From assembly GCA_029258915.1 (NCBI GenBank), contig JAPDJU010000002.1, positions 124,001 through 188,000 of the forward strand: 64,000 nt of DNA, in the 5' to 3' direction. A model generated the notes under the pieces. It was given only the letters and a program-made list of their open reading frames with translations, made no database searches and was not told the DNA's origin. This document shows, piece after piece, positions 377-33,154 of this stretch. The position numbers and the translations under genes are program-made. This DNA comes from Thermoproteota archaeon. GTDB taxonomy: Archaea; Thermoproteota; Thermoprotei_A; EX4484-217-1. Each line of letters begins with the position of its first letter. Position 1 is the stretch's first letter.

Positions 377-2584
377 ATGAAGAAGCCTGTTAGAGCTATA
401 CAGTATAATTTGGAAGATCCTTACGGGTATTTCATAAGTAAATTTACTGCTAAAAAATTAGTAAACTATACTAAAAGAATGCATGCTAACGTTATTGTTG
501 TTTTTGCAAGAGATGCTTGGGGTAGAAGACTTTATTTAAAAGGCAAGGTAGCACCTAAACATCCTAGGCTGACAAAAGAAACCTGCCTTGAAGAACTAGT
601 TAAACTAGCTAGTGAAAACAATATTAAAGTAGTTATCATGGTTGCGCATACAGCTAATAAACACATGTATGAAGAACATCCAGAATGGGTTCAAGTAAAC
701 GTTAAGGGAGAGCCCGTAATTTTAGAACATGTACCGTTTGGAGTAGCAATTAAACATCCTCAATGGCCTCTTCTCTGTTTAAATTCGCCATATATGAGTT
801 ACTTAGAGCAGGAGGTTAAAGAGGCAATAAGTATAATAAAACCCTATGCTGTACTTTTAGATTCTTTCAGATATCAGCCAGATTATCAAAAAGCATGCTA
901 CTGTAAATACTGTAGAGAAAAATTCCGTAAAGAAACAGGGTACGATCTCCCTGAAGAAGAAAACTGGGAGAGCAGAGAGTGGAAGGAGGCTTGGAAATGG
1001 AGATATAAAGTTGTTTTAGAATCTATGAGGAAACTATGGAAAATAGCTAAAGAAGCTAAAAAAGATATAGTATTCATGTACAATAATCATCCAGCAGGAT
1101 GGTCTGGTAGAGCAAACAAAGTACTTGAAGAAGCAAGAGACATCATAGATGCAGTCTTTGCTGAATGCAGTGAAGCAGATCATCAACCTCCAGGATTTAT
1201 TTCTGAAATGGTTAGGCTCACCAAAGCCATGAGCGGAGGCAAACCTGTTTGGGCTTCTAGAAATGCTTTTCACATGTATAGAACAGTTACTTCTACTACA
1301 CCCTTAGCTGTTAAGCAAGGGCTTAGAGAAGCATTTATTGCTGGAGGCTCACCTTGGATCTTATTCTTCTCCTCAACTTTAACTCAAGATGCTAGAATAA
1401 TGGATGCTGTTTCAGAAGTTTATTCCGAAATAGAAAAACTAGAAGACTACATGGAATATGCAGAACCCCTAAAATATGTAGGAATTATAGCGTCTAATAA
1501 TACAAGAGACTGGTATGGCAGAGACAACCCAGCATCCTATGTTGATGAAACTAGAGGATTCTACTATGCATTAATCCATAAACATGTACCTGTAGAGTTC
1601 GTGACTGATAAGGACTTAGAAAATTATGAAAGACTTAAAGACTATAAATTACTGATCCTAGCAAATAACACATGTATTTCTGATAGAGCATTGGATAACA
1701 TTAGAAAATACGTTAAAAATAAAGGTAAACTCTTAGTAACATATCAGGCAACAATATTAAATGAAGAAGGAATTGAAAGAGGAGATTTTGGTTTATCGGA
1801 CATTATGGGCTTCCATTATGAGGGCCTATTTGAAACACCATGGAGTTATACTGTAATAGAAAAAGAAGACATATTGTCTAAAGGTGTACCTAAGACCATA
1901 CTTTTGGGAGACATGAGCTACACCTTTAGAAAAACCCGTGTCGAACATGGCTTAGGAAACCATGCTAGGCTAAGAGTAGAGTCGGATGAGGTAGAAGTTG
2001 TCGCCAAAGTTGCACTACCTTTAGCTGTTTACGGCTACGAATATACTCTAGGTAGAAGCCCACCACCTATAGGTCCTTTAACAGAGGAACCGTCAATAGT
2101 AAGAAGTTCTTCACTAGTTTACTTTTCATTTCAACTTGGCAGACATTATTGGAGGTTAGGACTTCCAGAGTATTCAGGGTTAATAGCTAACAGTATTAAA
2201 TACTTAGTTTCGGAAAGACCAGTAATAGAGGTGGAAGCTCCAGAAACTATTGAAGCAAGTGTTTTTAAAGGAAAAGACTACTACATCGTACATCTACTTA
2301 ACCACACTTATAATCAAAGAATGCTTTCAGCTTTCATAGGAAAATCGAGGCAAGCAACACCCGGATATAGTCAACCGTTTGCGGTCCATCCGCCAAGAAC
2401 AGTAATTCCAATATTAAATGTTAGACTAAAGGCAAACTTAAAGGAAGACTGGCGAAAGGTAAAAATTATCCTTCCATTGAGAGGCATAGAGAAGAAAGTG
2501 AATCTTTCAAGAGAGAACACTATAGTTTACACAATACCTGTGCTTAACGAGTACGAAGTTTTAATACTTGAAAAACTTAGTTAA
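377..2584 (+). CDS. Large glycoside-hydrolase-like protein (GHL6 / beta-galactosidase trimerisation type)
   Basis: This 735-residue cytoplasmic-looking protein has no signal peptide or membrane segment. Residues 1-330 resemble the TIM barrel of hypothetical glycosyl hydrolase families (GHL6, related to GH29/GH42-like barrels). There is a LLDSFRY strand end and then a CYCKYCREKF segment, the CxC..C..F pattern that typically follows the catalytic strand in that family. Residues about 365-480 look like the class I glutamine-amidotransferase-like trimerisation domain of GH42 enzymes. The C-terminal 150 residues are beta-rich. The gene stands alone, with 186 bases in front containing AT-rich promoter-like sequence. 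The substrate is unknown; an alpha-fucosidase or beta-galactosidase activity is possible but not shown. Fold assignment is moderately sure, function is not. Confidence 0.6.
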   Translation: MKKPVRAIQYNLEDPYGYFISKFTAKKLVNYTKRMHANVIVVFARDAWGRRLYLKGKVAPKHPRLTKETCLEELVKLASENNIKVVIMVAHTANKHMYEEHPEWVQVNVKGEPVILEHVPFGVAIKHPQWPLLCLNSPYMSYLEQEVKEAISIIKPYAVLLDSFRYQPDYQKACYCKYCREKFRKETGYDLPEEENWESREWKEAWKWRYKVVLESMRKLWKIAKEAKKDIVFMYNNHPAGWSGRANKVLEEARDIIDAVFAECSEADHQPPGFISEMVRLTKAMSGGKPVWASRNAFHMYRTVTSTTPLAVKQGLREAFIAGGSPWILFFSSTLTQDARIMDAVSEVYSEIEKLEDYMEYAEPLKYVGIIASNNTRDWYGRDNPASYVDETRGFYYALIHKHVPVEFVTDKDLENYERLKDYKLLILANNTCISDRALDNIRKYVKNKGKLLVTYQATILNEEGIERGDFGLSDIMGFHYEGLFETPWSYTVIEKEDILSKGVPKTILLGDMSYTFRKTRVEHGLGNHARLRVESDEVEVVAKVALPLAVYGYEYTLGRSPPPIGPLTEEPSIVRSSSLVYFSFQLGRHYWRLGLPEYSGLIANSIKYLVSERPVIEVEAPETIEASVFKGKDYYIVHLLNHTYNQRMLSAFIGKSRQATPGYSQPFAVHPPRTVIPILNVRLKANLKEDWRKVKIILPLRGIEKKVNLSRENTIVYTIPVLNEYEVLILEKLS

Positions 2585-10930: not shown

Positions 10931-11632
10931 TTAAAAGCCCTTTGCAAGTACATGTAAAGGTATATTAACGTCAGGTATTTTCCTTTTTAATACATGTCTT
11001 GTAGATTTTGGAGGGAAGCACATACCTTTACTAACAACTCTTATGACATCTTCTCTTCTAATCTGAGGTAGAACAATAACTAAGCTACTATGCCAATACC
11101 TTTCAATAGCGTAATCTGGAACTATTTTAACCGAAAAACATTTGCTCAACATTTCTCTTTCCAGAGAATAAAGTGTTCTGTAAATTTCTAATATTGACCT
11201 TGAAGATTTAATCCTTAGATATTCCTTTCCATTAAAGAACACTACTATGTTCTTGCCTTGAACACTCTGACTTTCTTTGAACATTTTCTGTAAAAATTCA
11301 ATGACATATTTTTTAGCATTCTTACCCGTAAAAATGCGAGCCCAAGAATAGATCTCTGCCTCAGTATAGTCTATAAGTAATGCTGGAATAACTTTAAACC
11401 CTACTTCTCTGGCTATAGTTACTCTATGCGTACCATCGAGAACTATCATAGTGTTCTTATCAACTATAATGGGTTTCTTTAAAACACCATCGCCAAGTAT
11501 CTCCTCTTTCAACCCCTCTAAGTGTTCTTTAATACATTCTTCATGAAGCTTTAAAGCCCTTACATCAATTAGATAAACACCATATATACTATATGGGATG
11601 ATAATGTAGTTAGAAGATAACATAAAAACCAC
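10931..11632 (-). CDS. serK: SerK/SbnI-like free serine kinase (ParB-like fold)
   Basis: A 233-residue protein with a ParB-like N-terminal domain: ALKLHEECIKEHL (family catalytic glutamate region), PIIVDKNTMIVLDGTHR (the DG-x-HR motif) and ALLIDY. Its C-terminal segment has FPPKSTRHV and a PLHVL-type end. This combination is that of archaeal SerK and staphylococcal SbnI, which phosphorylate free L-serine to O-phosphoserine with ADP or ATP in cysteine or siderophore synthesis. The assignment rests on motifs, and a ParB-like DNA-binding protein is the alternative. The stop abuts the end of the convergent winged-helix fragment. The leader between its promoter and start holds a strong nested inverted repeat. 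Confidence 0.65.
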   Translation of the reverse strand: MVFMLSSNYIIIPYSIYGVYLIDVRALKLHEECIKEHLEGLKEEILGDGVLKKPIIVDKNTMIVLDGTHRVTIAREVGFKVIPALLIDYTEAEIYSWARIFTGKNAKKYVIEFLQKMFKESQSVQGKNIVVFFNGKEYLRIKSSRSILEIYRTLYSLEREMLSKCFSVKIVPDYAIERYWHSSLVIVLPQIRREDVIRVVSKGMCFPPKSTRHVLKRKIPDVNIPLHVLAKGF

Positions 11633-11650
11633 CGAAGAAGAAGTTAACTA

Positions 11651-11748
11651 ATTTACCAGCGCCAACAACAAGTGGCCCCTACATAGAAAACACAAGTTGC
11701 ACAAATGTTTTCAGGGGCCACTTCTAATAACACCTATCTCTGGTAAAT
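11651..11748 (-). promoter_or_regulatory. Nested inverted repeat in the leader of the SerK-like gene (candidate structured RNA)
   Basis: Three nested complementary pairs are visible. The outer pair is ATTTACCAG (11651-11659) with CTGGTAAAT (11740-11748). The middle pair is AAGTGGCCCCT (11670-11680) with AGGGGCCACTT (11713-11723), 11 perfect base pairs. The inner pair is GAAAACA with TGTTTTC, leaving a short apical loop. Unpaired asymmetrical segments separate outer and middle stems, as in a folded RNA. The GC-rich middle stem stands out in AT-rich surroundings. On the minus strand the structure ends 18 bases before the ATG of the SerK-like gene, and TATA-like sequence (ttatatattttaaaat, about 11750-11765) lies just upstream. 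A leader regulatory RNA is the favoured reading; a small non-coding RNA or a protein-binding palindrome is possible. Confidence 0.55.
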
Positions 11749-11896
11749 CATTTTAAAATATATAAGTATTGTCCTAAAATATTGTTGAAGAAAACAATTA
11801 TGTAAAATAGTATTCGTACGAAAGAATTAATAAACCCCTGTAAAAATACTTGAATCTGGCGAGAGAGCACCCCTAACACCCCTCTTTCCGACCCTC

Positions 11897-12469
11897 TTAC
11901 CTCTTTTTCATAACAATTACGTTATCCATGTATCTAATAAGCTCTAATACCATGTTCTTTTCTCTAAATGAAATACCTGTTCCATAATCGAAAGAAAGTT
12001 CATCTCCGTAGTAAGCGTTAGCTATAAAGGTTTTTGAAACCATTATACATTCATCTATTAAGTCTAAAGACCCGGCATGTAAATATAAGGTTAAATCGTT
12101 TATCACTAATATCTTGGTAGGAACATTTAGATACCTATAAATTAAGGGTTGCATGTTGTTTCTGTTCATAATAGCTAATTTTAACAGTTCTTCAGCATTG
12201 TTTGCTGATATTCTTGGGGTAAATACTTTTTCAGGAGCTAAATAAGCAAATACTTTAGAGCTGTTAAAACCGAAATCTATGAACCTACCTCCAGCGATGC
12301 CTTTTCTTTTAGGTGCAAAATCAAGAATCGTTATGTACTTACCATACCCATTATCTATAAGTTTATCAACAATTTTCATAGTTAACAGCGTTTTTCCAGA
12401 ACCTAATTCCCCTATTATAAGCGTTCTTTTGCTCAAAATTTTACTTAAGGGTGGTACGTTTGTAAACAT
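11897..12469 (-). CDS. P-loop ATPase encoded with ThiW
   Basis: A 190-residue protein with a clear Walker A, GELGSGKT, near residue 20 and a possible Walker B strand ending in aspartate (ILVINDL, about residue 123). It lacks the ABC signature LSGGQ, so it is not an ordinary ECF ATPase. It begins inside the last codons of thiW (29-base overlap, same strand), which implies translational coupling and a shared job, perhaps in thiamine-precursor uptake or salvage. I do not recognise a named family. KaiC/RecA-like or GTPase-like folds are possible. The segment from 11749 to 11896 downstream has no gene that I can support. Confidence 0.65.
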   Translation of the reverse strand: MFTNVPPLSKILSKRTLIIGELGSGKTLLTMKIVDKLIDNGYGKYITILDFAPKRKGIAGGRFIDFGFNSSKVFAYLAPEKVFTPRISANNAEELLKLAIMNRNNMQPLIYRYLNVPTKILVINDLTLYLHAGSLDLIDECIMVSKTFIANAYYGDELSFDYGTGISFREKNMVLELIRYMDNVIVMKKR

Positions 12470-12971
12470 ACTTAAGCACCTTCAAAATAAAGAAACCAAT
12501 TATAGATCCTGGTATAGAGCTTATTCCGAAAAGAAACCATATAGGAATTAGTGCTCCAGAAACTTTAAGATCACCAATCAATGGAGCCACTATATAAACG
12601 GAAAGAGTACCTCCAATAATAACTGTGCCTATGGGTTCGGTAAGTGCAGCATATTCTATTATCTTAGGCTTTACTTTTTTAAGAATATAAGAAAAAATGC
12701 CTACAATGAAACCTCCAGGTATTCCTCCAGGAAAAGCGTATATTGTTCCAATACCCAAAGCATTTCTTATAACACCTATAATTGTCGCTATAAAAGCCGC
12801 CCATAAGGGACCTAAAAGAACCCCAGCAATAGCGTTTATCATATGTTGACCTGGATAGGCCTTAGCTGTTAAGAACGGTATATATATGAAGGGAGCCAAT
12901 CCTACACCTAATGCTATAAGTATTGCTGAAACAACAACCTTATATGTCAATGTTTGCTTGTTAAGCGCCAT
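12441..12971 (-). CDS. thiW: ThiW, substrate-binding (S) component of an ECF thiamine-precursor transporter
   Basis: A 176-residue membrane protein with five to six hydrophobic segments and the ThiW signature YPGQHMINAIAGVLLGPLWA. It also has the AFPGGIPGGFIVG loop and a GSIIGFF end. ThiW proteins are S components of energy-coupling-factor transporters, predicted to import hydroxyethylthiazole or another thiamine precursor; they use a shared EcfA/A'/T module, which is not in this window. A good SD (ggagg) precedes the ATG. I found no TPP-riboswitch pattern in the 242 bases between this gene and the divergent gene at 13214. Confidence 0.85.
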   Translation of the reverse strand: MALNKQTLTYKVVVSAILIALGVGLAPFIYIPFLTAKAYPGQHMINAIAGVLLGPLWAAFIATIIGVIRNALGIGTIYAFPGGIPGGFIVGIFSYILKKVKPKIIEYAALTEPIGTVIIGGTLSVYIVAPLIGDLKVSGALIPIWFLFGISSIPGSIIGFFILKVLKYVYKRTTLK

Positions 12972-33024: not shown

Positions 33025-33154
33025 AGCCGGGTCGTCTAGCGGTCAAGGATGCGGGGCAGGTTCCTTTCTCCCTTTAGCAGGGAGAACCCTCGACTCTGGA
33101 CCTTAAAGGGGGAGAACCCCCGTGACCGGGGTTCGAATCCCCGCCCGGCTACCA
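33025..33154 (+). tRNA. tRNA-Gln (CUG), interrupted by probably two introns
   Basis: The acceptor stem pairs AGCCGGG (33025-33031) with CCCGGCT (33144-33150), followed by A73 and an encoded CCA. The D arm is GTCT/GGAT. The T arm is CGGGG TTCGAAT CCCCG. The anticodon stem pairs CGGGG (33052-33056) with CCCCG (33118-33122). Between them is about 60 bases, not 7. Removing about 37 bases (near 33057-33093, holding a TTCTCCCT/AGGGAGAA hairpin) and about 17 bases (near 33100-33116) leaves loop CTCTGG plus one base, anticodon CUG, and a normal 76-base tRNA. The A1-U72 pair also fits archaeal tRNA-Gln. Exact splice sites may shift by one or two bases. Confidence 0.8.

Follow-up and report, generated by a model that had tools for sequence, protein, structure and literature searches.

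A bulged hairpin before a SerK-like gene of a Thermoproteota archaeon and its possible role as an mRNA leader stem-loop

The question which this locus raises is whether a set of nested complementary segments in front of a gene for a serine-kinase-like (SerK-like) protein is part of a leader RNA, and what such a leader could do. The window, i.e., the whole stretch of 64,000 nucleotides analysed here, had been described in an earlier note, which postulated a new archaeal leader RNA that might sense an amino acid or a cofactor. The answer which we favour is a more modest one. We propose tentatively, giving it somewhat less than an even chance, that the hairpin is a lineage-specific stem-loop in the 5' leader of the SerK-like mRNA, which would stabilise the messenger or bind a protein.

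Architecture and strength of the hairpin

The site is intergenic (11650-11749) and is located between two genes which are read in the same direction, the SerK-like gene (10931-11623, minus strand) and, upstream of the hairpin, a P-loop ATPase-like gene (11897-12469, minus strand) without any Pfam or NCBIfam match. The hairpin and the SerK-like gene are placed on one strand, and no open reading frame of at least 60 aa separates them. A ThiW transporter gene (12441-12971, minus strand) overlaps the P-loop ATPase-like gene.

Three nested and roughly co-centred complementary segments are found, and the earlier note gave their pair counts correctly as 9, 11 and 7. The outer stem is formed by a 5' arm at 11740-11749 and a 3' arm at 11650-11659 on the minus strand; it has a core of nine Watson-Crick pairs (11651-11659/11740-11748), comprises 9-10 bp overall, can be extended to 14 bp at 86% pairing, and is only partly paired at 75 C. 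The middle stem pairs 11713-11723 (5' arm, minus strand) with 11670-11680 (3' arm, minus strand) in 11 of 11 positions, seven of the 11 being G+C. The apical stem has seven of seven pairs between 11706-11712 (5' arm, minus strand) and 11686-11692 (3' arm, minus strand), the latter adjoining a bulge of 5 nt at 11681-11685. The internal loops are asymmetrical, as the note had it, and measure 10 nt against 16 nt between the outer and middle stems and 5 nt against 0 between the middle and apical stems. On the minus strand, which carries the sense of the SerK-like gene, the stems are linked by wobble pairs, so that a single, unbranched and nearly continuous hairpin with bulges results. The stem arms match exactly and the intervening loops are unalike, which fits better with a constraint on pairing than with an evenly decaying inverted duplication.

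The fold energy at 37 C is -42.9 kcal/mol (z -4.9) on the minus strand and -31.5 kcal/mol (z -4.2) on the plus strand. The background was obtained by scanning both strands in 120-nt windows with energies corrected for base composition (GC), and against this background the minus-strand hairpin ranks first among 12,776 folds in the window (z -4.9) and first among 28,428 window-strand values in the 213-kb contig (z -5.0, the runner-up having -4.1). None of 10,000 dinucleotide shuffles was as stable as the hairpin; the best of them reached -42.0 kcal/mol against -42.7 for the hairpin, a gap of 0.7, so that p is only bounded near 1e-4. Given the approximately 3,500 independent window-strands which we estimate for the contig, a chance origin of the fold is unlikely. 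That the structure exists in the sequence, where it lies and how it stands out from the background are plain from these measurements. A strand difference of this size is found in 25% of 59 strong windows and is not significant; the stronger fold on the minus strand is therefore uninformative. It should be noted that the RNase P RNA of the same genome is unremarkable on the same measure and that the fold ranked second in the window after GC correction (1241-1360, plus strand, z -4.1) lies within an open frame of 735 aa, so that strong folding is neither a requirement for function nor a proof of it. In the minimum-energy structure the middle stem retains 10 of its 11 pairs from 75 to 85 C.

The SerK-like gene and its presumed leader

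Judged from sequence comparison the SerK-like protein is a distant homologue of SerK and SbnI. It matches a solved free serine kinase with E 5.7e-13, and HE, DGxHR and PKxTRHVL motifs are common to it and the solved free serine kinases in an alignment; SbnI, annotated as a bifunctional transcriptional regulator and O-phosphoserine synthase, is also matched. The protein can be compared with Thermococcus kodakarensis SerK (PMC5120207), with the difference that it is a distant relative which matches the NCBIfam SerK family with E 4.5e-19 but scores 68.5 bits where the cut-off is 380. The available part of the same paper states that serK adjoins the 3-phosphoglycerate dehydrogenase gene in Desulfurococcales, and no mention of an RNA leader of serK was found in that part (PMC5120207). 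Nor did a search of open-licence papers yield any that treats a leader of this kind upstream of SerK.

The listed start codon, GTG at 11632, falls within a Shine-Dalgarno-like GGUG (11630-11633, minus strand) which lies 6 nt before an ATG at 11623. For this reason the start was re-assigned to ATG 11623, where the gene probably begins. In the contig a strong Shine-Dalgarno sequence accompanies a start candidate in 43 of 113 genes which are far-spaced and in 33 of 67 which are close-spaced, but is found at four of 126 control positions; these statistics, like the TATA counts, come from a single contig whose genes were listed simply by longest ORF. Shine-Dalgarno-led initiation is thus in use in the contig, which makes a leader before the SerK-like gene, and a long one, plausible.

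TATA-like hexamers are present near the hairpin at 11765-11759 (TTATAT/TATATA) and at 11757-11751 (TTTAAA/TTAAAA). TTATAT (11760-11765, minus strand) is a consensus match only, and on sequence grounds it is the likeliest TATA box; with the gene on the minus strand the hairpin does lie between a TATA-like sequence and the SerK-like start, which is where the earlier note had put it. The usual distance from a TATA box to the transcript start is approximately 26 bp, and with this spacing the two starts are predicted near 11736 and 11728, both inside the structure. A start near 11736 would leave the 5' arm of the outer stem out of the RNA. The middle and apical stems are still predicted to fold in a leader beginning at 11737. 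Inspection also reveals a weaker TATA-like stretch near 11779, from which the whole structure would be transcribed.

The hairpin ends 16 nt before the Shine-Dalgarno-like GGUG, and in the predicted fold it pairs neither with this sequence nor with the start codon. At 37 C the Shine-Dalgarno sequence is predicted to be part of a small separate hairpin with the downstream coding sequence; at 75 C the predicted probabilities of being unpaired are 0.46-0.63 for its bases and 0.73-0.85 for the ATG, the middle stem persisting. Since the hairpin stops short of the ribosome-binding site without pairing with it, direct masking of this site is not the predicted mechanism. Among thermophilic crenarchaea the nearest precedent which we found for regulation by a 5' leader is the l7ae mRNA leader of Sulfolobus acidocaldarius, in which a kink-turn bound by L7Ae masks the Shine-Dalgarno sequence (PMC5539422). 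Both are from a thermophilic archaeon and combine a structured leader, here a presumed one, with a Shine-Dalgarno sequence close by, but by inspection the hairpin contains no kink-turn and the Shine-Dalgarno sequence is outside it.

Search for relatives of the hairpin and its gene

At the gathering cut-off Rfam gave no matches in the 64 kb, and a relaxed search (E up to 10, positions 11500-12000) gave five sub-threshold matches to unrelated families, two of them overlapping the hairpin. No Rfam family was thus matched at either threshold, in accordance with the earlier note, which saw no fit to TPP, fluoride, SAM or cobalamin switches. The covariance model used in the further searches, R1, was made from two identical copies and so holds one distinct sequence, and the genome searches used strict filters, for which reasons diverged homologues could be missed. 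With this single-sequence model and the stricter filters there was no match in 97 relatives, the window alone being found (one of 98 genomes), and a phylum-wide search of 398 genomes, some shared with the set of relatives, likewise found the window alone. The single-sequence model did not match any of 37 further SerK and ATPase loci, including all 29 SerK loci other than that of the window, nor any of 15 other loci; the locus search also returned a weak plus-strand match of the hairpin to itself. The 1.6-Mb genome from which the window is taken holds no second copy. With no homologue found there is no covariation and there are no compensatory changes to compare.

BLASTN matches in relatives were short. 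One of them, in contig C30 of the same-order genome G003 (25 bases, E 0.002), overlaps the 3' arm; it is inside an open frame of 762 aa and folds no better than shuffled sequences, 19 of 200 being as good, and it was therefore treated as a coincidence. The pattern of the 11-bp arms matched three viral contigs, which were compared further by the R1 search only, and a shorter 8+8 arm pattern was found at two places in one other genome (G090). The outer-arm pattern occurs once in each of three other genomes, where the interiors are unrelated, and a 17-mer matched two viral contigs, which is within the estimated chance expectation. BLASTN against phage and plasmid sequences gave two records each, all with E 0.7 or worse.

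SerK-like genes are present in 83 of the 98 genomes (own included), and the best full-length matches outside the window are approximately 33-36% identical. In the same-genus (67% complete) and same-family (59% complete) genomes none of the three proteins (SerK-like, ATPase and ThiW) found a match. In the same-order genome G003 the ThiW-ATPase pair is retained (locus L065), followed by a different gene and without the hairpin; relatives of the P-loop ATPase-like gene occur in nine of the 98 genomes, own included. No SerK was found in viral contigs, and the genome contig collection gave two bacterial loci which are 45-50% identical over short stretches. Before SerK homologues no equivalent hairpin was found, in a comparison of folds which was partial and with R1 as a single-sequence model. 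The upstream folds were taken from 30 loci, one of which is the window, and 21 gave a usable frame (the nine others being L032, L036, L044, L045, L048, L052, L055, L057, and L059); the comparison is partial because some of the 21 frames (e.g., L033, L037, L046, L051, and L058) look shorter than the gene and could be misassigned. By eye the DNA before the gene looks coding in some of the SerK relatives in this partial comparison, so that there is hardly space for a leader in them.

Possible explanations of the hairpin

The main rival of a leader stem-loop is a fold-back without function, which in this AT-rich intergenic DNA could have arisen by chance complementarity or be left over from a small duplication in inverted orientation. 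It would explain why the hairpin occurs once and was found in none of the other genomes searched, and it draws further weight from the best shuffle coming within 0.7 kcal/mol and from coding DNA in the window reaching z -4.1. It accounts less well for a hairpin that is first of the 28,428 contig folds and whose three stems pair exactly and nearly share a centre while the loops differ, and we hold it to be rather unlikely. We think it quite unlikely that the hairpin is a free-standing gene for a small non-coding RNA, with its own promoter at 11765-11760 and ending before the SerK-like gene. The structure is compact and placed downstream of a TATA-like box, and it is a GC-rich structured island, which in AT-rich thermophile genomes is often an RNA gene; against this, there is no Rfam match, inspection finds no H/ACA ANA box, kink-turn or C/D box pair, and no homologue was found in 97 relatives, which would be unusual for a housekeeping RNA. 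In its build the hairpin resembles the archaeal H/ACA guide RNA, in which the basal stem measures about 9 bp and the upper stem about 11 bp, with an internal loop between them. The hairpin has these proportions but differs from such RNAs in lacking, besides the kink-turn and the Rfam match, an ANA box on either strand: 3' of the basal stem AGU (or UAG) is found on the minus strand and AUU (or CAU) on the plus strand. A kink-turn with tandem G-A pairs was rejected because each internal loop has at least one strand without a suitable GA. A C/D box RNA, in which box C (RUGAUGA) pairs with box D (CUGA), was rejected by inspection since AUGAUUU is without the second GA of box C and the CUGA is found at the end of the middle stem.

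The 11-bp inverted repeats could also act as DNA and be an operator for a regulator, which might be the SerK/SbnI-like protein itself with its ParB fold. Their location just downstream of the TATA-like box and the match of the protein to a bifunctional transcriptional regulator speak for this idea; the arms, however, are nested and 32 and 80 nt apart, typical of a fold-back and not of adjacent half-sites, and a second copy was not found in the genome, which makes an operator improbable. The least probable explanation in our judgement is a metabolite riboswitch for serine, O-phosphoserine, cysteine or a thiamine compound. A gene of serine metabolism follows the hairpin and a ThiW transporter gene is found upstream, but the structure is one unbranched bulged hairpin without an Rfam match, has no homologue found before other SerK genes and does not pair with the Shine-Dalgarno sequence in the predicted fold.

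The leader stem-loop is favoured since the strongest GC-corrected fold of the contig is on the sense strand of the gene with none of 10,000 shuffles equalling it, since it ends before the Shine-Dalgarno sequence and the ATG in a contig where such sequences are commonly used, and since the middle stem is heat-stable and would fold with the apical stem even in a leader from 11737. It is weakened by the lack of a homologue, and hence of covariation, and by the fact that a strong fold alone is no mark of function and the strand bias is not significant. In the mechanism which we propose, transcription of the minus strand would place the hairpin in the leader of the SerK-like mRNA, where it would fold as a single long hairpin with bulges, which has a GC-rich middle stem predicted to persist at high temperature and which would stop short of the Shine-Dalgarno sequence and the ATG, pairing with neither. 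The likeliest role would be a passive one, in which the 5' end is shielded from decay or the hairpin serves as a standby or protein-binding structure, and not that of a metabolite switch; an effect on mRNA stability or translation may follow.

Of the leader RNA postulated in the earlier note there remains a structured element of no known family in a presumed SerK-like leader. The sensing of an amino acid or cofactor found no support: the genomes searched yielded no homologue of the hairpin that could display covariation or a conserved core, and no pairing with the Shine-Dalgarno sequence or the start codon is predicted. Because no relative of the hairpin was found it is most likely an ordinary leader structure rather than a sensor. 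To our knowledge only a small number of regulatory RNA leaders have been described from this part of the archaea, so a proven one here would be useful. That the hairpin is the first member of a class of archaeal leader RNAs restricted to a poorly sampled order, in which a bound metabolite or the bound kinase itself controls the serine-kinase gene, is highly improbable; as a single hairpin without a known relative its value is mainly that of a candidate for re-testing.

Elsewhere in the window, ARAGORN with introns allowed found an intron-containing tRNA-Ser(CGA) at 33025-33154 (plus strand), a gene with a 34-nt intron which was missed by another tRNA search and at the Rfam gathering cut-off.
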